The notes under the pieces were generated by a model, which was given only the letters and a program-made list of their open reading frames with translations, ran no database searches and was not told the DNA's origin. From Sphingorhabdus rigui (GTDB lineage Bacteria > Pseudomonadota > Alphaproteobacteria > Sphingomonadales > Sphingomonadaceae), in the NCBI RefSeq assembly GCF_014196595.1, contig NZ_JACIEA010000001.1:684845-748844 (forward strand): a stretch of 64,000 bases of DNA. The letters run 5' to 3'. Shown here piece by piece: positions 11,799 through 60,703 of the stretch. How positions within the stretch are numbered: position 1 is the stretch's first letter; each line of letters begins with the position of its first letter. A program made the translations under genes and the position numbers.

Positions 11799-14700
11799 TC
11801 ACTCCGCAGGCTGAAGTCCGCCGAGGTCGTCCTTGCCCGCTGTTTTGCCAGTTGCCTTTGCAGGCGTGGCAGCGGGCGGAGCGACATCTTCGCCATGCTT
11901 GTCGGGATCATAGGTCAGCAACCGTGTGCGCAACCATGGACCAATGCGTTTTTCAAAGCCATCGGCAAGGCTGAAGCCCGCAGGAACGATCAGCAAGGTA
12001 AGCAAGGTCGAAACGATCAGGCCGCCGATCACGACGGTGCCCATTGGCGAGCGCCACTGGCCGTCGCCGCCAAGCGAGAGCGCGGTTGGCACCATGCCAG
12101 CGGTCATCGCGACCGTGGTCATAACGATTGGCTGGGCACGTTTATGGCCGGCCTCCATGATCGCTTGGAACTTGGGAACGCCGCGCGCCATTTCCTCAAT
12201 CGCAAAGTCGATCAGCAGAATGGAGTTTTTCGCAACGATCCCAAAGAGCATCAATATGCCGATGAACACAGGCATGGAGATTGGCTGTCCAACAAGGCCA
12301 AGGGCGATCAAACCACCCAATGGAGCCAAGAGCAGCGAGCCCATATTGACCAAAGGCGACATGAAGCGATGGTACAAAAGCACCAGCACCGCGAACACCA
12401 GCAATGTTCCGGAAATCAGCGCCACGAGGAAGTCGCGCTGCATTTCCTGTTCCCATTCCTGGCTGCCAAAGGGCGCACGCGACACGCCGGTGGGCAGGTT
12501 TTTCATGATGGGAAGGTTGTTTATCTTTGCGTCCGCATCCGATGACACAATGCCAGGGGCGAAATCCGCGCCGATGAAGATACGGAAATTCTGGTTCCGG
12601 CGTTGGACCGAGGTGGGGCCAGCACCGAAACTGATGTCGGCCACGCGCGACAGTGGCACCGAGCCGCCGCCTGCCAATGGCACCGGCAAGTTGCGGATGA
12701 CATCCAAGTCCTGACGCGATTCCTTGGCAAGCATCACGCGGATCGGGATTTGACGGTCAGACAGCGAAAATTTTGCGCTATTCTGGTCAATGTCACCCAA
12801 CGTCGCAACGCGGATTGTCTGGCTGAGTGCTACCGTCGATACGCCAAGTTGCGATGCAAGGTCATTACGCGGCGTAATGATCAATTCTGGACGCTGCAAA
12901 TCAGCGGAAATACGCGGCGCGCGCAATTCGGGCAGCGTCTTCATCTGTTCCACAAGCGTTGCCGCTGTCCGGTCAAGCATTTTGGGGTCTGATCCGGACA
13001 ACATGACCGAAACGTCGCGACCTGAACCGCCGCCACCGCCGCCCGGGCCGTTCGCCTGAAACGTAACGCGTGCGTCGGCGATTTTTGTGAGCGATGGTGT
13101 CAGATCTTCTTCAAACTGTTGGCTGGACCGTACACGGTCTTCATGCAAGGTGATGAAAATGCTGGCGCTGCCTTCGCGCACGCTTTGAAGGGCGGTTTTT
13201 ACCTCAGGCTGCTTTTCGATAATCGCAGCAGCCTCATTGGCAATTTCGCGGGTCCGCTCAAGCGTCGTGCCCGGAACCATTTCAATACGCACGCGGCTGA
13301 AATCGGTATTGCCATCGGGGAAGAACTGCTTTGGCAGGACGATTAACAACGCGATGGTCAGGCCCAAAGCGGCTGCGCCAATACCCATCATCCAGCGGCG
13401 ATGGCCAAGCGACCAGCGCAGGATTTTCATGTACCGGTCGATCCAGCTCGCCTCGCCATGTTCGGCCATGCCGGCGGATTTGAGGAAATAGGCTGCGATC
13501 ATCGGCGTAATCATGCGCGCGACGGCAAGGCTCATGAGAACCGAAGCCACAACGGTCAGTCCGAAGTTTTTGAAGAATTGCCCCGCGACGCCGGGCATTA
13601 AACCAACGGGCAGGAACACCGCGACAATCGAGAATGTGGTGGCAACCACCGCAAGGCCGATTTCGTCGGCCGCATCAATTGATGCCTGATAGGCGGATTT
13701 GCCCATCCGCATATGCCGGACGATGTTTTCGATTTCCACGATAGCATCATCGACCAGAACCCCGGCGACGAGGCCGAGCGCGAGCAGTGACATGGTGTTG
13801 AGCGTAAAGCCCAATAGGTCAAGGAACCAGAAAGTCGGAATAGCGGACAGTGGAATGGCAATCGCGGAAATGATCGTCGCACGCCAATCGCGCAGGAACA
13901 GGAACACAACGACGATGGCGAGCAAGGCGCCTTCAATCATCGCGGCCATTGAGCTTTTATATTGCCCCTTGGTATAATCGACGCTGTTGAACAGCGTGAT
14001 GAAATTTACACCGGGATTTTCTTTTTCGATCTCGGCGATTTTGACCATCGCGTTGTCAAAAACGGTGACATCAGAAGCGCCCTTGGCACGTGACATGCCA
14101 AAGGTGACGACCTGTTTGCCGCCGGCAAATGCCATGGACCTCTGTTCGCTGAAGCCGTCAGTGACCTCGGCAACATCGGAGAGCTTAATCGAACGGCCAC
14201 CGCCAAGGCTGATTTGCGTTTGGCTTAAGGCGAACGCATCGGTTGCGTTGCCAAGGACGCGCACCGACTGGCGCGATCCCGCGATTTGCGATTGTCCGCC
14301 CGACGCGTTGACGTTTTGTTGACGTAGGACGCTGTTGATCTGGCTTGCGGTCACGCCAAGAGACTGCATTTTGGCGGGGTCAAGAACGATACGAATTTCA
14401 CGGTTTACGCCGCCATTGCGGTTAACTGACGCCATGCCTTCGACAGACAGCAATCGCCGTGCGACGGTATCATCGACAAACCAGCTGAGTTGCTCAAGCG
14501 TCATATCACTGGCTTCGACCGCGAAGTAGGCGATCGGGTCACTGGACGTTGCGACCTTGAAAATCTGCGGTTCCAAAATGCCGTCGGGCAAATCGCTGCG
14601 GATTTGGTCGACCGCGTTTTTGACTTCGCTGACCGCAGCATTGATGTCGTCGCCAATTTCGAACTCGGCGCTGACCGTCGTGTTGCCTTCGTTTGAGGTG

Positions 14701-37286: not shown

Positions 37287-37376
37287 AAAATTCTCCCCCG
37301 CGATTAATACAAGGAATAGTCTGGTTGGCGATATAAAAAATTGAATAATAAATGCATATTATGTAATTATTGGAAC

Positions 37377-38303: not shown

Positions 38304-39932
38304 TCAGTTGGCCCAATAGACATATTCCTGATCTTTTTTCCATGCCGCGTTGAGCGGAACATCGATCCGGATCGGGGCTTCGAGCAAGCCGGGCCAAAGG
38401 GGCTTGGGCAAACCGGCGTTTTGCGCTTCAATCAACTTGCGCAGTTCCGCAACGCGCGCCGGATCCTTGGCCGCCAAGTTGACTTGCTCGGTGGGATCGG
38501 TGGCGAGGTTGAACAGCCACACCTTGTTGGGACGTTCGGAAACCTGCAATTTCCAGTCGCCTGCGCGCACAACGCGGTAATGCCCCGAACGCCAGAAGGT
38601 CACTTCGCGTTTCGGTCCGGCGCCAAACAGGTTGAAGCTGTCCATCTTGCGATCGGTAGGGATGCGCGCACCGGTTGCCGCGGCAATGGTTGCAAACATA
38701 TCAAGATGCTGCGCGACATCGCTGCGAACCGTCCCCGGCGCAATCTTGCCGGGCCAGCGCATCATCATCGGCACATGAATGCCACCTTCGAAGAAGGTGC
38801 CTTTATACCCACGATAGGGCGTGTTGTGATCCTTGATACCGGTATACCAAGCCCCGCCATTGTCGCTGGTAAAAATAACAAGCGTATTGTTGTCGAGCCC
38901 GGTGTCCTTCAATTTTTGCAGCACGTCGCCAATCCGCCGGTCAAGCTGACGTATCATTGCGCCATAGACGCGCTGGGTATGGTCCTTAATCTGCGGTAAC
39001 GCGTCATAGTCCGATTTCAGCGCCTGCAGCGGGGTATGGGGCGCATTATAGGCCAGATACATGAAGAAGGGCCGGTTCTTGTTCGCGTCAATTGCGGCCA
39101 GCGCATTGTCGGTGAAATAGTCGGTCAGGTGGCCTTTGGGGCGGAAGCGCGCACTGTCCCCCCAATAGACGGCATGCGGCAGGTTTGCCCATAAAAAGCG
39201 GTCGATCGGGTCCCATGGCAGCTTTGCATTGACGACCTGCGGGTCATCTTCGGCCATAAACAAATCGCCGCCCGCGCGCATGCCCAGGCTTTCGTCAAAG
39301 CCCTGTGACGTTGGCCGCAATGGCTTTGCTTCACCCAGATGCCATTTGCCGATGTGGATATTGTGATAGCCTCTTGCTTTCAATATCTCGGGCAACATGA
39401 TTTCCGCATTGGGCACACCCATATCGGCATAAGCCGGCAGGTCGCGGTTTAGCTCTTCATGATAGATGGTCGGATAGGGTGAATTCCCATCATTGTGCGC
39501 CAGATTTGAGGCAAATGCGGCTGGAATAGACGTAAATTCAAAACCGAACCGTGTCGGATAACGCCCCGTCATCAATGCTGCGCGCGAAGGGGAGCAGGTG
39601 GCATTGGCGGCATAGCCATTGGCAAAGCTGACGCCCTGTTTGGCAATGGAATCGATATTGGGCGTCGGCACCGCGCCACCGGCAACCCCGCCACCGTACA
39701 GAGAAATGTCGTTCATGCCCAAATCGTCGGCAACAATCAGGATGACGTTGGGCGGACGTTTGCCAGAGGGCGCGACCGCAGGGCCCTGCGCCCATGCAAT
39801 GGGACGGTTTTCGCCAATCGGTTCGCGCCATTCGCTGATGATACCGGGAATATAGATTTTATATTGTTGAAAACCCAAATAGCCCGCGCCGATCAACAGC
39901 GCCAATGCTCCGATCCATGTCCATTTTTTCAT
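38304..39932 (-). CDS. Membrane-anchored sulfatase
   Basis: A 542-residue sulfatase of the alkaline phosphatase superfamily. The formylglycine site is Cys113 in CSPSRAALMTGRYPTR, and the metal-binding pair is in LIVADDLGMND. It begins with one hydrophobic helix (residues 4-22), so the catalytic domain should face the periplasm, either anchored or after cleavage. Such enzymes hydrolyse sulfate esters after a formylglycine-generating enzyme converts the Cys; a candidate FGE is encoded at 42030-42947. It is the last gene of a four-gene leftward operon with overlaps of four bases. The substrate is unknown; arylsulfatase is one option. Confidence 0.9.
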   Translation of the reverse strand: MKKWTWIGALALLIGAGYLGFQQYKIYIPGIISEWREPIGENRPIAWAQGPAVAPSGKRPPNVILIVADDLGMNDISLYGGGVAGGAVPTPNIDSIAKQGVSFANGYAANATCSPSRAALMTGRYPTRFGFEFTSIPAAFASNLAHNDGNSPYPTIYHEELNRDLPAYADMGVPNAEIMLPEILKARGYHNIHIGKWHLGEAKPLRPTSQGFDESLGMRAGGDLFMAEDDPQVVNAKLPWDPIDRFLWANLPHAVYWGDSARFRPKGHLTDYFTDNALAAIDANKNRPFFMYLAYNAPHTPLQALKSDYDALPQIKDHTQRVYGAMIRQLDRRIGDVLQKLKDTGLDNNTLVIFTSDNGGAWYTGIKDHNTPYRGYKGTFFEGGIHVPMMMRWPGKIAPGTVRSDVAQHLDMFATIAAATGARIPTDRKMDSFNLFGAGPKREVTFWRSGHYRVVRAGDWKLQVSERPNKVWLFNLATDPTEQVNLAAKDPARVAELRKLIEAQNAGLPKPLWPGLLEAPIRIDVPLNAAWKKDQEYVYWAN

Positions 39933-40387
39933 TCTGGGCTCTCCGGTTGGGTTTGACGTGATCGCCGCACAGATAGCCACAGAAACAGCAGAATTACGGG
40001 CAGCGAAATCAGGCTGGCATAATGTTCGGGCGGGTGATGGCCGCTGACGGGCACATGCTTTACCCAGCCCGACCAGCTCAGCAACAGGCGCTCGATCAGA
40101 GACACCAAAAGGAACAGCGGCACGAGCGCGCGGTAGCGTAATGCGACCAAGAGGGTGACGATGCCGTGCGCAATCTGCGTCGCGCCCGCCCAGGCAAACA
40201 TGCCGAAAATCATCGTTGGATTATGGCTGAGATCAAGCCCTGCAATGACGCCTGCGCCACCATCAGGCAGGAAACTGTGGATCATCCCCGGCACGATCCA
40301 GCCAATGCCATAAAATGCCAAAAACCACGCAGAGTAACGGGATCCACGATAGTGGATATTCGTACTGGGTGGAACGAAAGCGTTCAT
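39929..40387 (-). CDS. Small membrane protein in the sulfatase operon
   Basis: A 152-residue protein with about four membrane helices (for example WFLAFYGIGWIVPGMIH and PLFLLVSLIERLLLSW); no family recognised. It overlaps both neighbours by four bases (ATGA), so it is tightly co-translated with the sulfatase and with the DUF1330-like gene. A transport or scaffold role for the sulfatase pathway is possible but unsupported. Confidence 0.7.
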   Translation of the reverse strand: MNAFVPPSTNIHYRGSRYSAWFLAFYGIGWIVPGMIHSFLPDGGAGVIAGLDLSHNPTMIFGMFAWAGATQIAHGIVTLLVALRYRALVPLFLLVSLIERLLLSWSGWVKHVPVSGHHPPEHYASLISLPVILLFLWLSVRRSRQTQPESPE

Positions 40388-41016
40388 CCGGTAACTGTCA
40401 GGACGGCCAGATGCGCAAGTGCCGCCGCAAGCGCCAAGATGAGCGCAACCGTCACGCGCGGGCTGGCGTAGAACGACACGACCCGCTGTGTCGGGAATGA
40501 AAATGTCGCAAGCGTACCCAGCAGCTTGTCGGGATGGCCCTCCATAAAAGCGGGGTCCTTAACCAGCTTTATCATGTCGCGGCGGCTTCGGTAACGCATA
40601 AGGCCAAAGATCGTCCAGTCGGGGTCCGCCTCGGTGTTCCAAGCATCAATATATCCGCCAACCTTGCGTCCGACCATGCCGGGATGGCCGCCATTGCGGA
40701 ACAGAACTGGCATGAAGCGTTTCGAATAGCGTTTGAGCAGATCGAAGCCTTGGACCATTTGCCCGGTTTTGGGGTCCTCAACTTGCTCCATCTGCGCCTT
40801 CACCAGATTGAGCATGACAAACTCGCGGCCGTCATCAGCTTCAAGGAATGCGCGCATTACCTGTTGGCTATTTCCAGTGCCCTCGAAACGCCCCGCCATT
40901 TGCGCAAGAAACGCATCAATTTCCACAGGTTTCAGCGGGCCTGACCAATTGTCATACCAGAGCCGAAATAGCCCATAGGCAATCAACGCCGTTCCCCAGA
41001 TTATCCATGCTGTCAT
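40384..41016 (-). CDS. Membrane-anchored protein with DUF1330-like domain
   Basis: A 210-residue protein. A helix at the N terminus (residues 4-20) and one near the C terminus (VALILALAAALAHLAVL) flank a domain that looks like the dimeric alpha/beta-barrel DUF1330 type: FVMLNLVKAQM, then GGHPGMVGRKVGG, WTIFGLMRYRSRRDM and DPAF. Such ferredoxin-like domains often bind small aromatics or act as monooxygenases or decarboxylases; here the role is open. It belongs to the sulfatase operon, overlapping the next gene by four bases. Confidence 0.65.
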   Translation of the reverse strand: MTAWIIWGTALIAYGLFRLWYDNWSGPLKPVEIDAFLAQMAGRFEGTGNSQQVMRAFLEADDGREFVMLNLVKAQMEQVEDPKTGQMVQGFDLLKRYSKRFMPVLFRNGGHPGMVGRKVGGYIDAWNTEADPDWTIFGLMRYRSRRDMIKLVKDPAFMEGHPDKLLGTLATFSFPTQRVVSFYASPRVTVALILALAAALAHLAVLTVTG

Positions 41017-41019
41017 GGC

Positions 41020-41271
41020 CTAATTACCCTTTTTCTTGGCGCGCTCGGCATCGCGCCGCGCTTTTGCGGCCTCTTGACAGGCGGGTGATGTTTTCTTGAT
41101 ATTCTTGATAAGGCAGGCGCGGACATTGTCGCGGCTGAAAGTCGCCAATTCTGCAGAGCAGTATTTACGGATATCGGGCATGCACGCTTGGCGCACATTG
41201 TCTTGCGCCGCCAGCGGTGCAGTTGACAGCAGCAGGGCCGACGCCGCCAAAATGAAAACGGTTTTTGACAT
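41020..41271 (-). CDS. Small exported cysteine-rich protein
   Basis: An 83-residue protein with a signal peptide ending about AQDN and a mature part holding four Cys (ACMPDIRKYC...ACLIK...PACQEA), spaced as in Cys-rich repeat proteins found in proteobacteria, then a Lys/Arg-rich tail. The ATG at 41271 is chosen because a longer frame upstream would run through the operator. It is the first gene of the sulfatase operon, three bases ahead of the DUF1330-like gene. Confidence 0.75.
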   Translation of the reverse strand: MSKTVFILAASALLLSTAPLAAQDNVRQACMPDIRKYCSAELATFSRDNVRACLIKNIKKTSPACQEAAKARRDAERAKKKGN

Positions 41272-41331
41272 CTTTGCCTTCTTCCTCACCCAGCGATATT
41301 TTTCGTCGCCCAACAAAGCGGCGGAATATTA

Positions 41332-41350
41332 TTGGCATTAATTGTGCCAA
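41332..41350. promoter_or_regulatory. Inverted-repeat operator between the sulfatase and TetR operons
   Basis: TTGGCA-TTAATTG-TGCCAA, a perfect 6-bp inverted repeat with a 7-base spacer. It lies midway between the divergent starts at 41271 and 41413 (about 70 bases from each), where it could control both. The same pattern recurs at 42961-42984 and 47643-47669. Confidence 0.7.
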
Positions 41351-41412
41351 AATACATTTGCAATCGCTTTTGTCGCTTGCGCCAGCGGCCGTTTGCCGCA
41401 AAACATGCTCGC

Positions 41413-42033
41413 ATGACCAACGCATCGCACAAAATGACATCACGCGCAGAAGCGCCACTGGCCGATGGTCGGCGGGAACGCAGCCGGTCGAGCCGCTCAA
41501 AGATCGTTGCAGCCATGCTTGATCTGGTCGGTGAGGGCGATGTCGCACCTAGCGCCGCGCGTGTTGCGGAGGTCGCGGGCGTCGGGCTCCGCTCGGTTTT
41601 CCGACATTTTGACGATATGGACGAGCTGTATCGCGAAATGGGGGAGGTGATTGCGGCGCAGGTGATGCCGATCATCCTCGAACCGCCCAGCGGCGCAAGC
41701 TGGAAAGAAAAGCTGTTCGACATTGCGGACCGGCGGGCAGTGGTTTTCGAAACCATCCTGCCTTACCGGATTTCGGCCAGTCTCAAACGCTTCCAATCGC
41801 CCTATTTGATGCAGGATTATCGCCGGATGCTGCGGCTCGAATCCGACACGACCGAGGCGCATTTGCCGGTGTCGGTGAAGGCCGATGTGGCGGGTACCCG
41901 CAGCCTCAATGTGATATTGAGTTTCCAGACATGGCGACTGTTAAGGCATGATCAGGAATTGCCTATTGAGGACGCCAAGGCCGTTGTGCGGCGTTTGCTC
42001 AGCGATGCCATGTCGGGCATGCCGGAGGAATGA
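41413..42033 (+). CDS. TetR-family transcriptional regulator
   Basis: A 206-residue protein. The N-terminal helix-turn-helix (RSKIVAAMLDLVGEG, then VAPSAARVAEVAGVGLRSVFRHFDDMDELYREM) matches TetR/AcrR proteins, with a variable ligand-binding C-terminal domain. A start at 41434 (MTSRAEAP) is an alternative. It overlaps the FGE gene by four bases, so both are co-translated. The shared inverted repeat in its own promoter and in two other promoters of the region makes it the likely regulator of the sulfatase/dehalogenase genes; the ligand is unknown. Confidence 0.87.
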   Translation: MTNASHKMTSRAEAPLADGRRERSRSSRSKIVAAMLDLVGEGDVAPSAARVAEVAGVGLRSVFRHFDDMDELYREMGEVIAAQVMPIILEPPSGASWKEKLFDIADRRAVVFETILPYRISASLKRFQSPYLMQDYRRMLRLESDTTEAHLPVSVKADVAGTRSLNVILSFQTWRLLRHDQELPIEDAKAVVRRLLSDAMSGMPEE

Positions 42034-42947
42034 TGCAACGCGTCGCGTTCGCTCTCGGTATAGCGCTGCTGCTGTCTGGCTGCGGCGATGCATCTGGGCC
42101 GCCCGAAACAATGTGCACCGGCTTGCCAGACAATGAAATGGTCTGGGTTCCGGGCGGTAGCTTTGTGATGGGGGACGATCCGCATTACGCCGAGGAAGGT
42201 CCGCCGCAGACTGTGGCTGTTGAGGGGTTCTGGATTGACGCTTATGAAGTGACCAACGCCCAATTCGCGGCCTTTGTAAAAGCGACCGGCTACAAGACCA
42301 TGTCCGAGCGCGATCCGCCCAAGCTGCCCGGTGCGCCGCCCGAAATGCTGGTCCCGGGTTCTGCTGTGTTCAATATCCCGTCGGACGACGACCCGCGTTG
42401 GTGGCGCTGGGTTGTGGGGGCGCAATGGCGCCATCCTTCCGGCCCGAAAGAGACCATCGTTGGTCGCGACAATGAACCCGTTGTCCAGATCGCCTATCAA
42501 GATGCAGAGGCCTATGCACAATGGGCGGGCAAGGAATTGCCGAGCGAGGCGCAGTGGGAATATGCTGCGCGCGGCGGTGCGGTGGCCTTGCCGGAGCCGG
42601 TCGATGCAAAGGGCCAGCCGCAAGCGAATTATTATCAAGGCGTCTTCCCGGTCAAAAACCTGAATACCGACGGCTATATCGGTCGCGCGCCGGTGGGCTG
42701 TTTCAAACCGAACGGATACGGTCTGTATGATATGATCGGCAATGTTTGGGAATGGACGCGCAGCAGCGGTTCGCGCGCCGATGCCAGCGAACCTGTTAAC
42801 ATCATAAAAGGCGGATCCTATCTCTGCGCCGCCAATTATTGCGCGCGCTATCGCCCTGCGGCGCGTCAGTTTCAGGAACGCGGATTAGGCACCGACCATA
42901 TCGGGTTTCGGCTGGTTGATACGAAGAAGGCTGGGCCAGCGTCTTGA
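42030..42947 (+). CDS. Formylglycine-generating enzyme, lipoprotein-type
   Basis: A 305-residue FGE/SUMF1-domain protein. Conserved pieces are MVWVPGGSFVMG, YEVTNAQFAAFV, PVVQIAYQDAEAYAQWAGKELPSEAQWEYAARGG, NVWEWT, and the active-site region SYLCAANYCARYR with Cys266 and Cys271, spaced like the two catalytic cysteines of human FGE. These oxidise the sulfatase Cys to formylglycine. Unlike cytoplasmic bacterial FGEs, it begins with a lipoprotein signal (LLLSGCGD), which would place it outside the cytoplasm, where the two exported sulfatases of the region are. It follows the TetR gene with an ATGA overlap. Confidence 0.9.
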   Translation: MMQRVAFALGIALLLSGCGDASGPPETMCTGLPDNEMVWVPGGSFVMGDDPHYAEEGPPQTVAVEGFWIDAYEVTNAQFAAFVKATGYKTMSERDPPKLPGAPPEMLVPGSAVFNIPSDDDPRWWRWVVGAQWRHPSGPKETIVGRDNEPVVQIAYQDAEAYAQWAGKELPSEAQWEYAARGGAVALPEPVDAKGQPQANYYQGVFPVKNLNTDGYIGRAPVGCFKPNGYGLYDMIGNVWEWTRSSGSRADASEPVNIIKGGSYLCAANYCARYRPAARQFQERGLGTDHIGFRLVDTKKAGPAS

Positions 42948-42959
42948 CCCGCCATTGAT

Positions 42960-42984
42960 AATATGACACTTTAAGTGCCAATAT
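42960..42984. promoter_or_regulatory. Inverted-repeat operator in the dehalogenase promoter
   Basis: ATGACA-CTTTAAG-TGCCAA with an inner perfect palindrome CACTTTAAGTG at 42967-42977. It fills the gap between a TTGATA box (42955-42960) and a CAATAT box (42979-42984), 18 bases apart, on the plus strand. Repression by a bound regulator would therefore be direct. It resembles the repeats at 41332 and 47643. The dehalogenase ATG follows at 43007 after AGGGA. Confidence 0.65.
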
Positions 42985-43006
42985 CACCAATTTTAGGGAT
43001 TAATGC

Positions 43007-43897
43007 ATGAAAGTCCTACGCACACCCGACAGCGCCTTTGCCGCAATCGACGATTTCCCTTTTGCGCCAAATTATGTGGAGATTGCCGATCCCTCGGACG
43101 GCACGCCATTGCGTGTGCATTATGTCGACGAAGGCCCCCGCGATGCGCCGGTGGTGCTGATGATGCATGGTGAACCAAGCTGGAGCTATCTGTACCGTCA
43201 CATGATCGGTCCGGTCGTCGCGGCCGGCTTTCGCGTTGTCGCGCCTGATCTGATTGGCTTTGGTAAATCGGACAAGCCCACGAAAAAAACCGACTATAGC
43301 TATGCACGCCATGTTGGCTGGATGCGCCAGTGGATTGAGGCGGTTGGTCTGAGCAATATGACGCTCGTCTGTCAGGATTGGGGATCGCTGATCGGGCTAC
43401 GCCTTGTCGCGGAAATGCCGGATCGCTTTGCCAGCGTCGTGCTGTCGAATGGCGGCTTGCCCGAAGGCGGCCCGCCACCGCGCGCTTTTGCTATCTGGCG
43501 CGCTTTTTCCAAATGGAGTCCGTTTTTCCCCATCGGCAGAATCGTCAACGCCGGGGCAAAGCGTGCGCTCAGCGCGGCTGAGATCGCCGCTTATGACGCG
43601 CCGTTCCCCGACAGCAGCTACAAGGCCGGCGCGCGGATATTCCCGAGCTTCGTTCCGTTCGAGAATAATGTCGCGATCCCCGATCAGAAACGTGCGTGGG
43701 CAGTGTTTGAGAAATGGGACAAGCCATTCCTGTGCTGTTTCAGCGACGGCGATCCCGTCACGCGCGGTGGCGAGAGCCGGTTCATCGGCCGCGTTCCCGG
43801 TACAGCGGGTCAGCCGCATTGCACGTTGAAGGGCGGTCATTTCATTCAGGAAAATGACCCGCAGGGCTTCGTCGACTGCATCCTAAAAGTGCGATAG
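43007..43897 (+). CDS. Haloalkane dehalogenase, DhlA-like (copy 1)
   Basis: A 296-residue alpha/beta hydrolase. The nucleophile Asp124 is in LVCQDWG and is followed by Trp125, one halide-binding residue; a second Trp aligned with DhlA Trp175 is Trp164. MHGEPSWSYLYR and the APFPDSSYKAGARIFP block in the cap match the HLD-I subfamily typified by DhlA. The acid lies in FSDGDPV and the base in GGHFIQEN. Such enzymes release halide from haloalkanes by hydrolysis. The protein has no export signal. It is the first gene of a pair, two bases ahead of copy 2. The natural substrate cannot be read from the sequence. Confidence 0.88.
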   Translation: MKVLRTPDSAFAAIDDFPFAPNYVEIADPSDGTPLRVHYVDEGPRDAPVVLMMHGEPSWSYLYRHMIGPVVAAGFRVVAPDLIGFGKSDKPTKKTDYSYARHVGWMRQWIEAVGLSNMTLVCQDWGSLIGLRLVAEMPDRFASVVLSNGGLPEGGPPPRAFAIWRAFSKWSPFFPIGRIVNAGAKRALSAAEIAAYDAPFPDSSYKAGARIFPSFVPFENNVAIPDQKRAWAVFEKWDKPFLCCFSDGDPVTRGGESRFIGRVPGTAGQPHCTLKGGHFIQENDPQGFVDCILKVR

Positions 43898-43899
43898 TC

Positions 43900-44796
43900 A
43901 TGCAGGTCTTGCGCACCCCTGACAACGCTTTCGCCGACCTTCGGGACTATCCCTTCGCGGCACATTATGTTGAGGTTGAAACGCAGGGCACGCCAGCCTT
44001 GCGGTTGCATTATGTCGATGAAGGCCCCCGCGACGCTGCGCCGATCCTGCTGCTGCATGGAGAGCCGACCTGGTCCTATCTCTACCGCAAATTTATACCA
44101 CCGCTCGCCGCCGCCGGGCACCGCGTGCTGGCACCCGATTTGATTGGCTTTGGCAAGTCTGACAAGCCGGCCAGCCGCGACGATTATAGCTATGAACGCC
44201 ATGTTGCGTGGATGAGCGACTGGCTGACGCAGCTTGATCTCAACAACATCACGTTGTTCTGTCAGGATTGGGGCGGGTTGATCGGACTGCGGCTGGTTGC
44301 GGCTTTTCCGGATCGTTTTGCGCGGCTGGTGATTTCAAACACTTATTTGCCCGTTGGCGAGAATATTGGTCCCGGTTTCGATGGCTGGCGCGCCTTCAGC
44401 CAGGCCACGCCCGAATTCAAAAGCGGCCGGATCGTTGATGGCGGCTGTAACCGCGCACTGACGAGCGCCGAGATCGCCGCATATGATGCGCCGTTCCCTG
44501 ATGAGAATTTCAAGGCCGGCGCGCGCCAGTTTCCTGTGCTCGTGCCTGTGACCCCTGACCATCTGTCGGTTGCGGAAAATTCTGCCGCTTGGGCACAGCT
44601 GGAACGTTTCGACAAACCGGTGCTCACCTGCTTTGGTCATCAGGACAAGGTGCTCGGTCATCTCGATACGGAAATTCAGCGCCGTATTCCGGGTGCGAAG
44701 GGGCAACCGCATTGCCGGATCGACGCCAGCCATTTCTGTCAGGAAGATCAGCCGGAACAGCTGGTCGCGTTGATCCGCAATTTCATCCCGGCCTAG
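43900..44796 (+). CDS. Haloalkane dehalogenase, DhlA-like (copy 2)
   Basis: A 298-residue paralogue of the preceding gene, and the two begin alike (M-x-VLRTPD-x-AFA). The nucleophile is Asp123 in LFCQDWGG, the halide-binding Trp are 124 and 163, the acid lies in FGHQDKV and the base in ASHFCQED. The differing cap region (NTYLPVGENIGPGFDGW) suggests a changed substrate pocket. It starts two bases after the first copy's stop, so both are one operon under the 42960 operator. It converges on the downstream sulfatase gene. Confidence 0.88.
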   Translation: MQVLRTPDNAFADLRDYPFAAHYVEVETQGTPALRLHYVDEGPRDAAPILLLHGEPTWSYLYRKFIPPLAAAGHRVLAPDLIGFGKSDKPASRDDYSYERHVAWMSDWLTQLDLNNITLFCQDWGGLIGLRLVAAFPDRFARLVISNTYLPVGENIGPGFDGWRAFSQATPEFKSGRIVDGGCNRALTSAEIAAYDAPFPDENFKAGARQFPVLVPVTPDHLSVAENSAAWAQLERFDKPVLTCFGHQDKVLGHLDTEIQRRIPGAKGQPHCRIDASHFCQEDQPEQLVALIRNFIPA

Positions 44797-44811
44797 GCGA
44801 AGGTCCGGCGG

Positions 44812-46605
44812 TTAAGCTGCCCTTCGCCGCCGTCTGCGCCACCAGACTAAAGTCGCTGTTGCTATCAATAGTAGCGCACCCACCGGCCACAACGCGATAA
44901 GCCGCGGTATCAGCAAGGTGCGGAGCGCATTTGCGAATATCTGTTTGGGCGCGGTGTAACCATCCGGCATGGGCAGCACGTTGTTTGCCTTGGCAAAGGC
45001 GGCGTAATCGGATTGCATATCCGCAAAACGTTGCGGGTCTGAACCGGACATATCGTTGGTCTCACCGGGGTCGGTGGTAATGTTGTAAAGCCGCCAGCGG
45101 CCATCGCCATAAGGCGGCAGGTTTTTGACGAGCTTGTAATCGCCTTTGAACAGCACCGCATTGCCCGACAATTCATAGCCCAAAGGCGTGTCCGCCGAAT
45201 GCACGGACGATGCAGCCCCTGTGAGCATGGGTGTCAGGTCCATCCCAATCATGGGCTCGACGCGGCGTCCCGAAAAACTGCCTTGCTGCGGCGCGACGCC
45301 TGCGAGCTTCAGCAACGTCAGCGGCATGTCAGTCACGTGCGCAAAACCGGACGTAATGGTGCCGCCCTTAATCGCCCGGTTGCCGGGCCAGGCGATGATC
45401 ATCGGAACACGCAAGCCTCCTTCGTTCGCGGTAAACTTGTAACCACGCAGCGGCGATACCGATGCGCTGGCAAATCCCGCACCTTGTGCGGTCAGCGAAC
45501 CCGGGCGCCCTTGTTGGGCGATGCTTTGATCATAAAGGTGATTGGCGTTCCAGCGCGTAAATGCGCCCATGGTCATTGGGTCAGTCGCTTCCGCGCCATT
45601 GTCCGACAGAAACACGAAGATGGTGTTTTCATATGCACCGATGGCCTTCAGATGCGCAACTAATCGGCCGATTTCGCGGTCCATCGCCGTGCCCATGGCA
45701 GCATAAGCGGCCATTGCACCCGCACGTTGCCGCTTTTGCTCTGCCGATAATTTCGACCAATCACCACTGGTGTCCATGGTCACCATCGCAACGTCCGCGG
45801 GCATCACGCCTTTGGCAATCGCTGCGGCGCGGCGCTCTTTGCGTAGCGTGGTCCAGCCAGCATTATAGCGCCCGGCATAAGCCGCAATGTCCGCATCGCG
45901 TGCCTGCACCGGAATATGGTTCGCGATAAAATTGACGGATGCCAGAAACGGTTTTCCGCTCGCCCTGCCGCGGTCGATATAGCCGATCATTCTGTCGACA
46001 ATCAGCGTTGAGGAGTAAAAGCGTTTCGGCAGTTTGGCCGGCTTTCCATCGTCGCTCCACTCGGTCTTGTCATAAATCAGCAGATTGGGCTTATCTTCAA
46101 AATTGTCGGCGCCCGATTGCGCCAGCGCGAGCGCGTGGTCATAGCCGCGTGCCGTCGGCAAAGTATCGGGCGTGTGGCCCAGATGCCATTTTCCGGTCAG
46201 ATAGGTGCGATAGCCCCCCGCGCGCAGCTGGTCCGCAATGGTCACGACGCGGTTGTTCAGATGCGCCTCATAACCCGGTTTGCCGAGATGTTCCGGCGGA
46301 ATTGTCTCTGGCATATTGCCCAGACCCGCGCGGTGGTTGATCACGCCGGTTTGCAGCATCGCGCGCGTTGGGGAGCAGGACCCTGCCACATGGAAGTTCG
46401 AAAAACGCACGCCCTTGGCGGCAAGCGCGTCGATATTGGGCGTCGCAATCTCTCCGCCGAAGGCCCCGACATCACTAAAGCCCCAATCATCGGCTAATAG
46501 GATGACGATATTGGGGGCTTTTGCGGGCGCAGACTGTGCGCCAAGCGTGGCCGGGCTAAGCAACGCCAGCGCCGTCAATAGGGTTGCCGGTCCTTTCAGC
46601 TTCAT
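44812..46605 (-). CDS. Exported arylsulfatase-type sulfatase with C-terminal anchor
   Basis: A 597-residue sulfatase. A signal peptide (residues 1-24, ending TLGAQS) precedes the catalytic domain with LLADDWGFSD and Cys77 in CSPTRAMLQTG, the formylglycine motif. After the sulfatase domain, a C-terminal hydrophobic helix (WPVGALLLIATATLVWW) followed by a cluster of Arg would anchor the protein to the inner membrane with the catalytic domain outside. The motif GSLTAQGAGFASASVSPLRGYKF matches bacterial arylsulfatases. It overlaps the GST-like gene by four bases and is expressed with it. Confidence 0.9.
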   Translation of the reverse strand: MKLKGPATLLTALALLSPATLGAQSAPAKAPNIVILLADDWGFSDVGAFGGEIATPNIDALAAKGVRFSNFHVAGSCSPTRAMLQTGVINHRAGLGNMPETIPPEHLGKPGYEAHLNNRVVTIADQLRAGGYRTYLTGKWHLGHTPDTLPTARGYDHALALAQSGADNFEDKPNLLIYDKTEWSDDGKPAKLPKRFYSSTLIVDRMIGYIDRGRASGKPFLASVNFIANHIPVQARDADIAAYAGRYNAGWTTLRKERRAAAIAKGVMPADVAMVTMDTSGDWSKLSAEQKRQRAGAMAAYAAMGTAMDREIGRLVAHLKAIGAYENTIFVFLSDNGAEATDPMTMGAFTRWNANHLYDQSIAQQGRPGSLTAQGAGFASASVSPLRGYKFTANEGGLRVPMIIAWPGNRAIKGGTITSGFAHVTDMPLTLLKLAGVAPQQGSFSGRRVEPMIGMDLTPMLTGAASSVHSADTPLGYELSGNAVLFKGDYKLVKNLPPYGDGRWRLYNITTDPGETNDMSGSDPQRFADMQSDYAAFAKANNVLPMPDGYTAPKQIFANALRTLLIPRLIALWPVGALLLIATATLVWWRRRRRRAA

Positions 46606-47597
46606 TGGCTTAGCAAAGCCTCAAGGCAGCCCGTCTGCGCGAGCAGCGGATCAATGCGCGCCCGCGCATGTGCATCCAACGCGGCATAACGCGCGCGCAA
46701 ATCGGCGAGGCACTTCACCTGATATTTGAAAACACCCTGCGTATAGGGCAGGCCCATTGCGGTGATGTGGAAACTATCTTCGCCTGCCGCAATTGCCGCG
46801 GCGTTGGCGAGCAGGAAGGGCATGTAGATTTCGCCCACCTGTTGCAACCAAGCGGTGATAATTGGCGCAAAGGGCGCATCCGCCGTATCCCATTTGCCCG
46901 TTATTCCCGACATATCGTCAATATGGAGCAGCCAGCGGAAGCTGTAAGGGAAATCTTTGCGCATCATCGCCTGCGCCGTGGGGTCAACGCCAAGCTGTGA
47001 CAATTGGCCGTACATCCCGAACTCCGCCATGCTTGGACGCGTACCGAACAGGCAATGTTGATCCACCACATGCGTTTCCAGCGCACCCAGAATCGCGCGG
47101 GTTGACGCCTCGATCAACGGGAAGTTTTCGGCGGCGCAGCCGACAATCGCCATGCGGCCGACCTGGCGCGCGCGGAACTGTTCGGCATAGCCCTGACTCG
47201 TCGCCAGCCCGCCGCCCTTCATCGCGTCAAACGCGAGCCAGCGGCTCATCTGGATCTGGTCGACCTCCTCCAGCCAGCGATACCCGAACATCGCCTTTGT
47301 TACCCACTCATCGGCGAAATCCTCAATCAAATGCGCGATAAAGGCGTGCGCTGGATCGGGCGGGATGACCGAACGTTCGGAATGCCGCGCCTCCAGATCA
47401 TAGATCAACGGCGTTGAATCATTGTGAAATGTCCCATCGGGATATTCCATCACGGGAATGACAGGGGCCTTGACCTTGCTGAGTGCATCGCGCGAATCTG
47501 CGCCGTGTACCCACAGATGCGGGATGCGCCGATACCGCATAAGCGCGCGCATCTTCATCGAATAGGGCGACCCGAGTGCGCCGTTGATTATATACAT
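46602..47597 (-). CDS. Glutathione S-transferase-like protein
   Basis: A 331-residue protein. The N-terminal thioredoxin-like domain (residues 1-80) begins MYIINGALGSPYSMKMRALMRY and has the cis-Pro region VIPVMEYPDGT followed by DSTPLIYDLEARH, as in GSTs; the helical part is longer than usual. The start at 47597 is chosen over 47618 because GGAAGGA lies nine bases before it. A conjugating or isomerising step on the pathway substrate is likely but unproven. It is the first gene of a two-gene operon with the sulfatase, under the operator at 47643-47669. Confidence 0.8.
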   Translation of the reverse strand: MYIINGALGSPYSMKMRALMRYRRIPHLWVHGADSRDALSKVKAPVIPVMEYPDGTFHNDSTPLIYDLEARHSERSVIPPDPAHAFIAHLIEDFADEWVTKAMFGYRWLEEVDQIQMSRWLAFDAMKGGGLATSQGYAEQFRARQVGRMAIVGCAAENFPLIEASTRAILGALETHVVDQHCLFGTRPSMAEFGMYGQLSQLGVDPTAQAMMRKDFPYSFRWLLHIDDMSGITGKWDTADAPFAPIITAWLQQVGEIYMPFLLANAAAIAAGEDSFHITAMGLPYTQGVFKYQVKCLADLRARYAALDAHARARIDPLLAQTGCLEALLSQ

Positions 47598-47642
47598 GGC
47601 AGTCGTTCCTTCCGTCATCGTCCGGCATTATGTGTAATGGGC

Positions 47643-47669
47643 TATATTGACATTATCAATGTCAATATA
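47643..47669. promoter_or_regulatory. 27-bp perfect inverted-repeat operator upstream of the GST-like gene
   Basis: Two perfect 12-bp arms separated by three bases (TATATTGACATT and its reverse complement), the strongest member of the TTGRCA-N7-TGYCAA set in this region. It lies 46-72 bases upstream of the GST-like start and overlaps likely -35 sequence on the minus strand. The neighbouring genes are read leftwards, so it can serve only the GST-like/sulfatase operon. Confidence 0.8.
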
Positions 47670-47764: not shown

Positions 47765-48496
47765 TCAAGGTGCAACAATGCGGTGTTGGGCCAGATGTTC
47801 ATAGTCGGCCATGCAGGCATCCGCGACGGCGCGGGCTTCATCATCGAGGTTGAGCGGCCGTATATCTGGTTTTTGGAATCCCGTGCTGGCCGCAACCGCG
47901 TCATACCAATGGCTTGCCCAAATGCCGTCATCTGGATGGATACCAGCGGGCCATGACAACATGGCGGGATCCCATGCGATGTTGAGCGCATCACATAGCA
48001 AAGCTAGCGTCTTTGCGGGATTTTTAAGAATGTCCGCGCTGTCGACGACCGGTGGGGCATGGCCGGTCCGGTCGGCGATACGATCAAAGAACGCACGCTG
48101 GGTTGCGTAACCAAGATCTTCGACGTTCACGCTTTCTCGCTTAACGCGGTAGCTGGCCACCATATACGCAGGCTCGCGAACCAGAAAGGCGTGGCGGCAG
48201 TTGGTCAAATCATCGGGTTGGATTGGGCCGACCATATGGTGGGTCATCTGCTTTTGATACCATAAGGGCGCACCCCCCGGTGCGGGGCCGGAAAGGCGGG
48301 CGGCTACGCTGGACCAGTCGCAATCCATATCTGCGATGACTTCTGCTGCCATGGGGTGCGGCTCCCCGCTATGTGCAAGGAAACAGCCGTAAAAGGGTTC
48401 GTCACTGACCGCGCAATCCGCGCGCGACGAAAAGCTGCGCATCATCGCCGTCGAGATATTTCGTGGTCCCGACCACATGCATATCCGCTGCGTCAA
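47765..48496 (-). CDS. Sulfotransferase-like protein paired with a class IV aminotransferase
   Basis: A 243-residue protein with an N-terminal P-loop-like segment WSGPRNISTAMMRSF and a later FLVREPAYMVASYR, the phosphosulfate-binding pattern of sulfotransferase-fold proteins, though the fit is loose. Its gene overlaps the aminotransferase gene by four bases, an arrangement that suggests a joint function. No signal peptide. The role is unknown. Confidence 0.65.
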   Translation of the reverse strand: MTQRICMWSGPRNISTAMMRSFSSRADCAVSDEPFYGCFLAHSGEPHPMAAEVIADMDCDWSSVAARLSGPAPGGAPLWYQKQMTHHMVGPIQPDDLTNCRHAFLVREPAYMVASYRVKRESVNVEDLGYATQRAFFDRIADRTGHAPPVVDSADILKNPAKTLALLCDALNIAWDPAMLSWPAGIHPDDGIWASHWYDAVAASTGFQKPDIRPLNLDDEARAVADACMADYEHLAQHRIVAP

Positions 48497-58186: not shown

Positions 58187-60703
58187 ATGGATAACTCGTC
58201 TCCGACCACTGAAGAGCCAACTGCGATCAGTTACAGACTGAAACGCGAAGCCGAAGGTTTTATCGGCAAGTGGCAGGTCTGGTGGCAAAGCAAACGGTTT
58301 CGGCGCGCGACCTACGGGGTGGGCGCGTTTGTTCTGTTTCTCATGCTCTTTTGGGTGCTTTTTGCGCGCAATCTTCCCGATGCCGAAGCGCTGATCGAAT
58401 ATGAATCGCCGCTGCCAACGGTGGTGCGCGACGTTAACGGCGAACCATTTCACAGCTACGCGCGCGAACGCCGCGTTCAGCTGGAATATGCTGACTTCCC
58501 CAAATTACTGGTCCGGGCCTATCTGGCCGCGGAAGATAAGACATTCTTCAGCCATGGCGGTATTGATTATCCCGGTATCGTTTCGGCGATTTTTGACAAT
58601 ATCTTCAGCAGCAAGCGCTCGCGCGGTGCGTCGACCATCACGCAACAGGTCGCCAAAAACCTGTTGCTGACGAACGAGTATAGTTACACCCGTAAGGTCA
58701 AAGAAGCGATTTTGGCCAAGCGCATTGAAAGTGCGCTGACCAAGCAGCAGATCCTGTCGCTGTACCTCAACGAAATTGCGCTCGGTCGGCAGGCGTTTGG
58801 CGTGGAAGCCGCAGCGCAGGCCTATTTCGCCAAAAGCGTGGATCAGCTTCAGCTGCATGAAATGGCCTTTCTCGCGATCTTGCCCAAGGCACCAGAACGT
58901 TATGGTCGCGCAAAGAATGCGAAGCTTGCCATTGCCCGACGCAACTGGGTGCTGGGCGAAATGCGCAAGAATGAATGGATCACCGACGCACAATTAGCTT
59001 CTGCCCGTGCCAAACCCCTTGGCCTGGTTGCACAGCGCGGTACCGGATATAAAAATGTCGGCGGATATTTCGCGGAAGAAGTGCGCCGCCAACTGATTGA
59101 GCGCTTTGGTGAAACCGATGCCGACGGACCCTATAGCGTCTATTCGGGCGGTCTTTGGGTACGTTCATCGATGAACGCCGATTATCAGATACTCGCGACC
59201 CAGGCACTGCGCGACGGTTTGCTGCGCTATAACGCCGGCAAAGCGTGGAAAGCCAATATGGGCACGATCGACGTGTCGGACGACAAATGGGCGTCACGAT
59301 TTGCAGCGACCAATATTGCCATTGATTACGCCAATTGGCGCGCTGGTGTGGCTTTGGGCAAAGGCAAAGTGGGTTTTGCCGATGGCAGCATTGCGCAGTT
59401 AGATGGCGCGCCATCCGCGATGAAAGCTGGCGATGTTATTGCTGTCGCACCCAATGGTACGAATAGCTACGCGGTGCGCAGCGTTCCAGAAGTCGGCGGC
59501 GGCATGGTGGTGCAAAACCCAATGAATGGCCGCGTTTTGGCGATCCAAGGCGGTTTTGATAACCGCATTTCCAGCTTCAATCGCGCAACACAGGCGCAAC
59601 GTCAGCCAGGTTCGACGATCAAGCCATTCGTCTATGCGACGGCGCTGGATAACGGCATGACGCCGACATCGATCATCGTCGATGGGCCATATTGCGTGTG
59701 GCAAGGGGCATCGCTTGGCCAAAAATGCTTCCGAAACTTCACCGGTAATGGCGCAGGGCCGCAAACAATGCGTTGGGGGTTGGAGCAATCGCGCAACCTG
59801 ATGACGGTGCGTGCGGCGGCGGAATCGGGTATGGACAATGTGACCGATACCTTCCGCGCTATGGGCATCGGCGATTATCCGGAATATCTTTCTTATGCCT
59901 TGGGCGCGGGTGACACGACCGTGCTGAAGATGGTCAATGCCTATTCGATGCTGGTCAATCACGGCCGCGAATTGAAACCGACGCTCATCGATTTCGCGCA
60001 GAACCGTAAAGGTAAAGTCATTTTCCCTGCCAAGTGGAAACCGTGCAAGGGCTGCCTTGCCAAGGATTGGGACGGCAAGCCAATGCCGCGCTTCGCTGCC
60101 GCGGGTAAACAGGTCATGGACCCAATTACCGCTTATCAAGTCGTCCACATGCTTGAAGGCGTCATTGAACGCGGCACGGCGGTCACATTGCGCGAACTGG
60201 ATCGCCCGTTGTTTGGGAAGACCGGCACGACAACCGGTCCCACCAACGTATGGTTCATTGGCGGATCGCCACATCTGGTTGCAGGGCTCTATTTGGGCTT
60301 TGATCAACCGCGGAATATGGGTGGCTATGCGCAGGGTAGTTCACTTGCGGCCCCCATCTTCAAACAATTCGCGCGGTCCGCGATGGCCGGCATGCCAAAG
60401 ACACCGTTTATCGCGCCCGCGGGAACCCGGTTGGTGCGTATCGATCGCAAGACCGGCAAGCGCGTCTATGGCGCTTGGCCGGGCAGAGACCCCATGAGCG
60501 CGGTGATTTGGGAAGCATTCAAGGCTGAGACCGAACCGAAACGCTCCATTCGCCAAGAGGAGCTAGCTGCGCGCGAAGACAAGCCCAAGGAAGCATCCGA
60601 GGTGCAGTCCAATAGCGCAACGCGATCGTCGGCATCGGCGAGCACCAGCGTCGGGACAAAACGCGATCAGGAGTTTATCCAGCAAGAGGGCGGAATATAC
60701 TGA
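58187..60703 (+). CDS. mrcA: Penicillin-binding protein 1A
   Basis: An 838-residue bifunctional peptidoglycan synthase. After a cytoplasmic tail and membrane helix (residues 43-64), the glycosyltransferase domain shows AAEDKTFFSHGGID and RGASTITQQVAKNLLL. The transpeptidase domain has Ser476 in QPGSTIKPF, SRN in EQSRNLM and KTG in FGKTGTTTGPTN. The C-terminal 60 residues are charged and low-complexity. It lies behind the amidase gene, with GAGAGGG ahead of its ATG, and the two may share the CtrA-linked promoter, joining wall synthesis with wall cleavage. Confidence 0.95.
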   Translation: MDNSSPTTEEPTAISYRLKREAEGFIGKWQVWWQSKRFRRATYGVGAFVLFLMLFWVLFARNLPDAEALIEYESPLPTVVRDVNGEPFHSYARERRVQLEYADFPKLLVRAYLAAEDKTFFSHGGIDYPGIVSAIFDNIFSSKRSRGASTITQQVAKNLLLTNEYSYTRKVKEAILAKRIESALTKQQILSLYLNEIALGRQAFGVEAAAQAYFAKSVDQLQLHEMAFLAILPKAPERYGRAKNAKLAIARRNWVLGEMRKNEWITDAQLASARAKPLGLVAQRGTGYKNVGGYFAEEVRRQLIERFGETDADGPYSVYSGGLWVRSSMNADYQILATQALRDGLLRYNAGKAWKANMGTIDVSDDKWASRFAATNIAIDYANWRAGVALGKGKVGFADGSIAQLDGAPSAMKAGDVIAVAPNGTNSYAVRSVPEVGGGMVVQNPMNGRVLAIQGGFDNRISSFNRATQAQRQPGSTIKPFVYATALDNGMTPTSIIVDGPYCVWQGASLGQKCFRNFTGNGAGPQTMRWGLEQSRNLMTVRAAAESGMDNVTDTFRAMGIGDYPEYLSYALGAGDTTVLKMVNAYSMLVNHGRELKPTLIDFAQNRKGKVIFPAKWKPCKGCLAKDWDGKPMPRFAAAGKQVMDPITAYQVVHMLEGVIERGTAVTLRELDRPLFGKTGTTTGPTNVWFIGGSPHLVAGLYLGFDQPRNMGGYAQGSSLAAPIFKQFARSAMAGMPKTPFIAPAGTRLVRIDRKTGKRVYGAWPGRDPMSAVIWEAFKAETEPKRSIRQEELAAREDKPKEASEVQSNSATRSSASASTSVGTKRDQEFIQQEGGIY

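Follow-up and report, generated by a model that had tools for sequence, protein, structure and literature searches.

Three inverted repeats in the stretch of Sphingorhabdus rigui DNA analysed here (64,000 nucleotides of contig NZ_JACIEA010000001.1, hereafter the window) very probably serve one TetR-type repressor, encoded at 41413–42033, as its binding sites. We consider it highly likely that they are operators from which this protein represses all four transcription units behind them until an inducer releases it. Besides the regulator gene itself, these units encode two type I sulfatases and a sulfatase maturase, two haloalkane dehalogenases and a GST-like protein. The original prediction, that one TetR protein controls all the sites and four operons, is supported by the operator found before TetR homologues of other families, by the co-occurrence of operator and regulator across genomes, by the lack of the operator ahead of dehalogenase homologues in TetR-less genomes, by an invariant block in the recognition helix and by operators before homologous genes in distant bacteria.

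Probable operator sites in the window

All three inverted repeats are present in the sequence as claimed; none is assigned a strand. Site 1 (TTGGCATTAATTGTGCCAA, 41332–41350) lies exactly where it had been placed, in the divergent promoter region between a gene for a small cysteine-rich protein and tetR, 60 bp from the start codon of the former and 62 bp from the TetR ATG at 41413. The other two had been located two bases and one base away from their true positions: site 2 (ATGACACTTTAAGTGCCAA) occupies 42963–42981, 25 bp ahead of the ATG of dehalogenase 1, and site 3 occupies 47643–47669 (core 47647–47665, TTGACATTATCAATGTCAA), ahead of the operon of the GST-like protein and sulfatase B and 49 bp from the GST-like start codon (28 bp if the start is 47618). 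Site 3 had further been described as a perfect 27-bp palindrome; its 12-base arms are perfect, but its 3-base centre is not self-complementary. Behind the three sites lie four presumed transcription units, one leftward and one rightward at site 1 and one each at sites 2 and 3.

To characterize the motif, 80 loci encoding relatives of the TetR protein were fetched (L numbers below). A full matrix was built from 33 promoters with 23 distinct sites (the window and L042–L075 minus L071 and L074, which were left out as no such site was seen upstream on reading), and an other-family matrix from eight TetR promoters outside the genus (L064–L070 and L072) with seven distinct sites. With the latter, the three best scores in the 64 kb, 35.1, 26.3 and 23.9 bits, belong to the three window sites, and the next match reaches 16.5. 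It is not wholly independent: the sites from which it was built had been placed by means of the full matrix, which was seeded with window site 3 among others and counts window site 1 among its rows. Over 200 shuffles the best score of the other-family matrix averages 12.3 and reaches 24.5 at the largest, so that the weakest of the three, site 2, alone falls within the shuffle extreme, but the trio together does not.

A strict pattern, WTGRCAYWNNNWRTGYCAW, composed after the sites had been seen, occurs at exactly three places in the 2.47-Mb genome, all of them the three sites, while WTTGRCAYTWWNNRTGYCAAW at 0–1 mismatches returns the three sites, one further place (C2:49339) and nothing else. 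The original prediction had proposed a genome scan with TTGRCA-N7-TGYCAA and had taken many unrelated hits as refutation. This loose pattern is too common to decide anything and was dropped, since it matches 69 places in the genome at no more than one mismatch and 19 in the window at no more than two (10.6 in shuffles), and the refutation test is therefore ambiguous in that form; the strict pattern, with its exactly three sites, favours the prediction.

Conservation of the probable operator and its tie to TetR

The palindrome stands upstream of the TetR gene in L042–L070, L072, L073 and L088. It is kept in loci of this kind of sphingomonad, with a close variant, TTATTGACACTTATCATGTCAATAT, in L067 and L068 (Maricaulis, Hyphomonadaceae), and across families base identity, not pairing alone, is conserved. 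At site 2, 21 of the 22 loci with dehalogenase 1 (L042–L060, L062, L063 and L073) score at least 20 bits and the remaining one, L073, scores 14.4; site 3 is present in nine of the 13 loci that hold the GST gene among L042–L063. The locus of the cultured environmental relative Sphingorhabdus wooponensis 03SU3-P (L053) carries sites 1 and 2, and a third site was not found in it. A reduced regulon is seen in genomes G032 and G022, where the operator precedes both the TetR/210-residue protein genes and a dehalogenase (L165:8842 and 9569; L166:9188 and 9925) and no sulfatase is labelled in the stretches fetched.

The strict pattern was then run on 61 genomes, 37 of the same genus (own included) and 24 of other orders, and was found in 28 of them. 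With a strong TetR match defined as E below 1e-80, it occurs in 18/18 same-genus genomes with the TetR ortholog (46 places) as against 4/19 without such a match (5 places), a co-occurrence with a Fisher p of 5e-7, kinship not corrected. A reversed-pattern control gave no match in the 37 same-genus genomes. In the TetR-bearing genomes, 42 of the 46 places share a contig with TetR and lie no more than about 9 kb from it. Two of the four off-contig places precede the GST-sulfatase B genes on broken contigs (G017 and G028), another in G028 scores 28.8 bits and has no clear target, and the last, in G027, scores under 17 bits. The TetR-less same-genus hits in G005 (two), G011 and G026 show no site at display thresholds of 15–17 bits.

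Thirteen TetR-less genomes of the genus have a dehalogenase match at 1e-50, six of them 65–80% identical and seven 41–49%. None of the six closer homologues has a site in its upstream 200 bp (best −0.6 bits); the same region scores 22–30 bits in six comparators that have TetR. In L200 and L201, from TetR-less genomes, another short palindrome, GTCAT-TAT-ATGAC, lies ahead of the dehalogenase homologue and is perhaps the site of some other regulator.

The regulator, with 206 residues, is the only TetR protein of the region, as had been claimed: of the 10 TetR_N domains that PF00440 matches in the genome, a single one lies in the window. The window protein itself scores 20 bits, below the 24-bit cut-off, and 37 of 43 homologues match at E 0.001. 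Its AlphaFold model (mean pLDDT 90.2) consists of helices only, and the nearest PDB folds are TetR-family regulators, with modest E-values (best 4.9e-4). Residues R60, S61, V62, F63, R64, H65, F66 and D68 are invariant in the 43 homologues, down to 28% identity. Such invariance of the recognition-helix block, most of which falls within the predicted third helix (59–66), is what a retained operator would lead one to expect. G004, which has the TetR ortholog, carries in addition a more distant second paralogue (36% identical; L167:6260–6955), next to genes of the DsbA-like and MBL-fold types.

The probable regulon in distant bacteria

The 46 loci outside the matrix (L076–L121, 577 kb; L088 also belongs to the training group) contain 43 sites of at least 20 bits in 22 loci, where shuffles give a mean of 0.08 and a maximum of 1; the other 24 loci have no site of that strength. 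Directly upstream of a module gene, mostly at 20–100 bp, lie 42 of the 43, a count that is partly circular: homologues of window genes counted as module genes, and so did MBL-fold, MDR reductase, DUF2855, DUF1330, second GST-like and TonB-receptor genes, extra labels that were drawn from L078, L152 and L159. Eight whole genomes behind distant loci have one to four strict matches each, 20 in total (controls 0–1), 14 of which precede module-type genes, in L148 and L152 only by general family. Clear cases are a sulfatase B homologue (L146), a sulfatase A homologue (L150), an MBL-fold gene (L145) whose product has the arylsulfatase 8gyg as best solved relative, and DsbA-like genes (L154 and L159). 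In Parvibaculum, a run of dehalogenase, sulfatase A and DoxX-like genes (L170) has a weaker site of 24.3 bits ahead of it; in L168, a site of 32 bits separates the sulfatase B side from a long-chain acyl-CoA synthetase. Other bacterial groups also have related regulators with a similar site, and there the regulon is wider, with MBL-fold, DsbA-like and TonB-receptor genes joining it.

Genes of the locus

The tetR gene (41413..42033, forward; ATG start) also has a longer TTG-started frame from 41332, and its product is the predicted operator-binding protein. Its stop is overlapped by the gene for the formylglycine-generating enzyme (FGE, the sulfatase maturase; 42030..42947, forward), presumably in the same operon. 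FGE scores 251 bits with PF03781 and 205 bits against the solved human-type enzyme 1y1e, and the alignment keeps the C-terminal cysteine pair, GGSY-x-C-x4-C-x-RYR, cysteines that play a role in this enzyme. Haloalkane dehalogenases 1 (43007..43897) and 2 (43900..44796), both forward, are assigned by NF002043 (431 and 457 bits, cut-off 265), by their motifs and by solved relatives, the best being 5esr, 4mj3 and 6f9o. They have the HGEP and QDWG motifs and the catalytic His (positions 53–54, 122–123 and 278). These are the marks of dehalogenases of class HLD-I, in which QDWG provides the nucleophile and the halide-Trp.

On the reverse strand, the GST-like gene (46602..47618, start probably 47597) is the first of an operon with type I sulfatase B (44812..46605), which has the CSPTR signature and whose nearest solved relative is the arylsulfatase 1hdh. 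The leftward operon behind site 1, also on the reverse strand, is headed by the gene for the small cysteine-rich repeat protein (41020..41271; PF00839 21 bits, just below the cut-off of 22), followed by a conserved 210-residue protein with no Pfam match (40384..41016), which lies beside TetR in most of L064–L072, a 152-residue membrane-like protein (39929..40387; DoxX-like by eye only) and type I sulfatase A (38304..39935; CSPSR signature; nearest solved relatives are carrageenan sulfatases). Both sulfatases match PF00884 (198 and 182 bits) and carry C-x-P-x-R signatures. A LysR-like gene is found in the window at 37341. The sulfotransferase-like gene at 47765–48496 was kept out of the module: it is near the module in L042, L045 and L181 and away from it in L043, L046, L047 and others.

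Other palindromes and rejected sites

A candidate fourth operator at C2:49339 (23.4 bits), between genes taken by eye for RNase PH and nucleotide pyrophosphatase, was rejected because it is not conserved in near relatives: in 12 loci fetched, the own genome scores 23.4 bits and the best elsewhere 11.0. At C4:14733 (L130:1502) the genome has an operator-like site of 24.0 bits, upstream of a gene that we take by eye to resemble SapC; this stretch is present in only 2 of the 37 genomes, so conservation is uninformative there. Within the window, the full matrix gives a weaker fourth match, TTGCCATTGATTACGCCAA, at 59316–59334 (17.4 bits). Two further palindromes resembling TTGRCA-N7-TGYCAA, TTGACCATCGCGTTGTCAA and TTGGCACGTGACATGCCAA, lie 42 bp apart at 14041–14101, score below 10 bits with the operator matrix and are perhaps sites of another regulator. 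A short palindromic repeat, TGTCATTCCCGCGAAAGCGGGGATGACA, was seen at L125:1521–1548; pieces of about 24 bases of it recur in several related genomes, mostly G007 and G021.

Discussion

Our results suggest a mechanism in which a TetR dimer would bind TTGRCA-N7-TGYCAA near the start codons or, in relatives, WTGRCAY-N5-RTGYCAW with AT-rich flanks. In the absence of inducer, it would repress four transcription units: the genes for the Cys-rich protein, the 210-residue protein, the DoxX-like protein and sulfatase A; tetR and FGE, which would be autoregulated; dehalogenases 1 and 2; and the GST-like protein with sulfatase B. A small molecule from the pathway may then release TetR from its operators.

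Several observations weigh against this reading, in addition to the partial circularity of the count of module genes. No site was found upstream of the TetR homologues in L071 and L074, and the TetR gene's own upstream region has no strong site in L076–L087 and most Parvibaculum loci. Many distant homologues being without a strong site of their own, autoregulation is not general; it is likely for tetR in the present locus. Site 3 was not found in L057–L060, that is, in four of the 13 loci holding the GST gene, and 6 of the 20 distant strict matches (L144, L147, L149, L153, L158 and L171) are not near module genes. Strong sites also occur away from the regulator. TetR-less G036 has a 27.6-bit site before a gene that by eye is ATP-synthase-like (L164:6748), and G044, without a strong TetR match, has one of 27.5 bits inside a large transporter-like gene (L163:4986) and another operator-like site of 23.4 bits elsewhere, none of its three strict-pattern places being near module genes. 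The strong sites in these two genomes reflect either chance or another regulator. The strict pattern is further present in 6 of the 24 other-order genomes, all without a strong TetR match (10 places). Such matches could mean that the sites are operators of another regulator, either a different TetR protein or the LysR gene at 37341, and that the neighbouring TetR is incidental. This would fit the nine other TetR genes of the genome, the presence of the LysR-like gene in the window and another TetR-like gene, recognised by eye in G017 and G028, that is divergent to GST-sulfatase B across site 3 (L181:3838–4530 and L180:7167–7859). We nevertheless consider it quite unlikely, given that operator presence tracks TetR in the same-genus genomes, that L064–L070 and L072, whose fetched flanks showed no homologue of LysR, sulfatase A or a dehalogenase, keep the operator before TetR, and that the matrix from these very promoters recovers all three window sites.

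With the TetR protein as the regulator, its sign of action has to be considered. Sites 1 and 3 showed no recognisable sigma-70-like promoter, and at site 2 the only match, 9 of 12, lies on the other strand. Repression is consequently deduced from the short distance to the start codons, a further point that tells against that part of the proposal. A few TetR-family members activate, and the unrecognised promoter overlap would be consistent with an activator or with a dual role. However, the sites lie 25–62 bp from the start codons, mostly 20–100 bp in other loci, where a bound protein would block RNA polymerase, and TetR repressors typically show such a divergent, autoregulatory arrangement, making either role rather improbable. 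That the palindromes act in RNA, as hairpin or terminator, or are chance or repeat sequence is extremely unlikely. They are able to form hairpins, the loose pattern is common, and a terminator-like match (stem 41301–41326; shuffle mean 0.5) adjoins site 1, with its tail running into the site; but sites 2 and 3 have no such match, at none of the three sites is a palindrome the stem, base identity is conserved across families and the enrichment over shuffles is extreme.

The module joins dehalogenases to sulfatases that have a maturase of their own; relatives add an acyl-CoA synthetase and an enone-reductase-like enzyme. This combination suggests that the module may break down sulfated, possibly halogenated lipids. 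Such a lipid is our guess for the ligand, and chlorosulfolipids as the substrate are a guess; no paper on their bacterial breakdown was among the matches listed for the open-licence PMC literature. The same-genus genomes G019, G022 and G032, which have TetR and a dehalogenase, show no FGE match at 1e-50, so that the module's task does not always involve sulfate, and this speaks against chlorosulfolipids. A broader and rather unlikely proposal makes this TetR subfamily the master switch of a pathway not yet described, spread over Sphingomonadales, Parvibaculum and relatives, SAR92/Halieaceae and perhaps Actinomycetota. The substrates would be sulfated halogenated lipids of algae, for example chlorosulfolipids, and the pathway would take them up (TonB receptor), desulfate them (type I sulfatases with their own FGE, perhaps an MBL-fold arylsulfatase), dehalogenate them (haloalkane dehalogenases, GST/DsbA-like proteins) and activate them (long-chain acyl-CoA synthetase). 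To our knowledge, the natural substrates of haloalkane dehalogenases are largely unknown; if the proposal were true, these enzymes would gain a natural substrate class. The shared regulator turns the dehalogenase substrate question into a ligand screen, and the operator allows candidate pathway genes to be listed in these genomes.

Relation to known systems

TetR repressors that act on a palindromic operator are well known. The lipid-sensing TetR repressors FadR of B. subtilis and KstR are both among the fold matches of the window protein; they differ in sequence, with 13–17% identity in these matches, and the likeness is one of the common TetR fold. In Rhodococcus, the regulator of the haloalkane dehalogenase operon is DhaR, of the TetR class; our search found no paper on DhaR. 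PMC3414701 describes a regulatory gene alongside a haloalkane dehalogenase operon that may repress it in the absence of halocarbon, which resembles the present locus. The Rhodococcus operon, compared by its genes, differs in that the passage of PMC3414701 on it names alcohol and aldehyde dehydrogenase genes, with no sulfatases or FGE. The SLF alkyl-sulfate module of Psychrobacter plasmid pP62BP1, according to PMC10779009, is likewise a sulfatase operon under negative control; it includes a fatty-acid-CoA synthetase and is induced by a pathway aldehyde. Its regulator SlfR, however, is of the AraC/XylS type, and the slfCHSL genes listed include neither FGE nor a dehalogenase. The claim of the original prediction that no such regulon has been described agrees with our search of the open-licence PMC literature, outside which most subscription papers lie: nothing relevant on the gene combination, and no mention of DUF2855, was found in it. 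As far as the literature was searched, the novelty lies in the set of genes tied together, probably by one regulator: haloalkane dehalogenases with sulfatases, the sulfatase maturase and a GST-like protein. In distant bacteria, genes for MBL-fold proteins, DsbA-like proteins, a TonB receptor and lipid enzymes also stand behind an operator of similar sequence.

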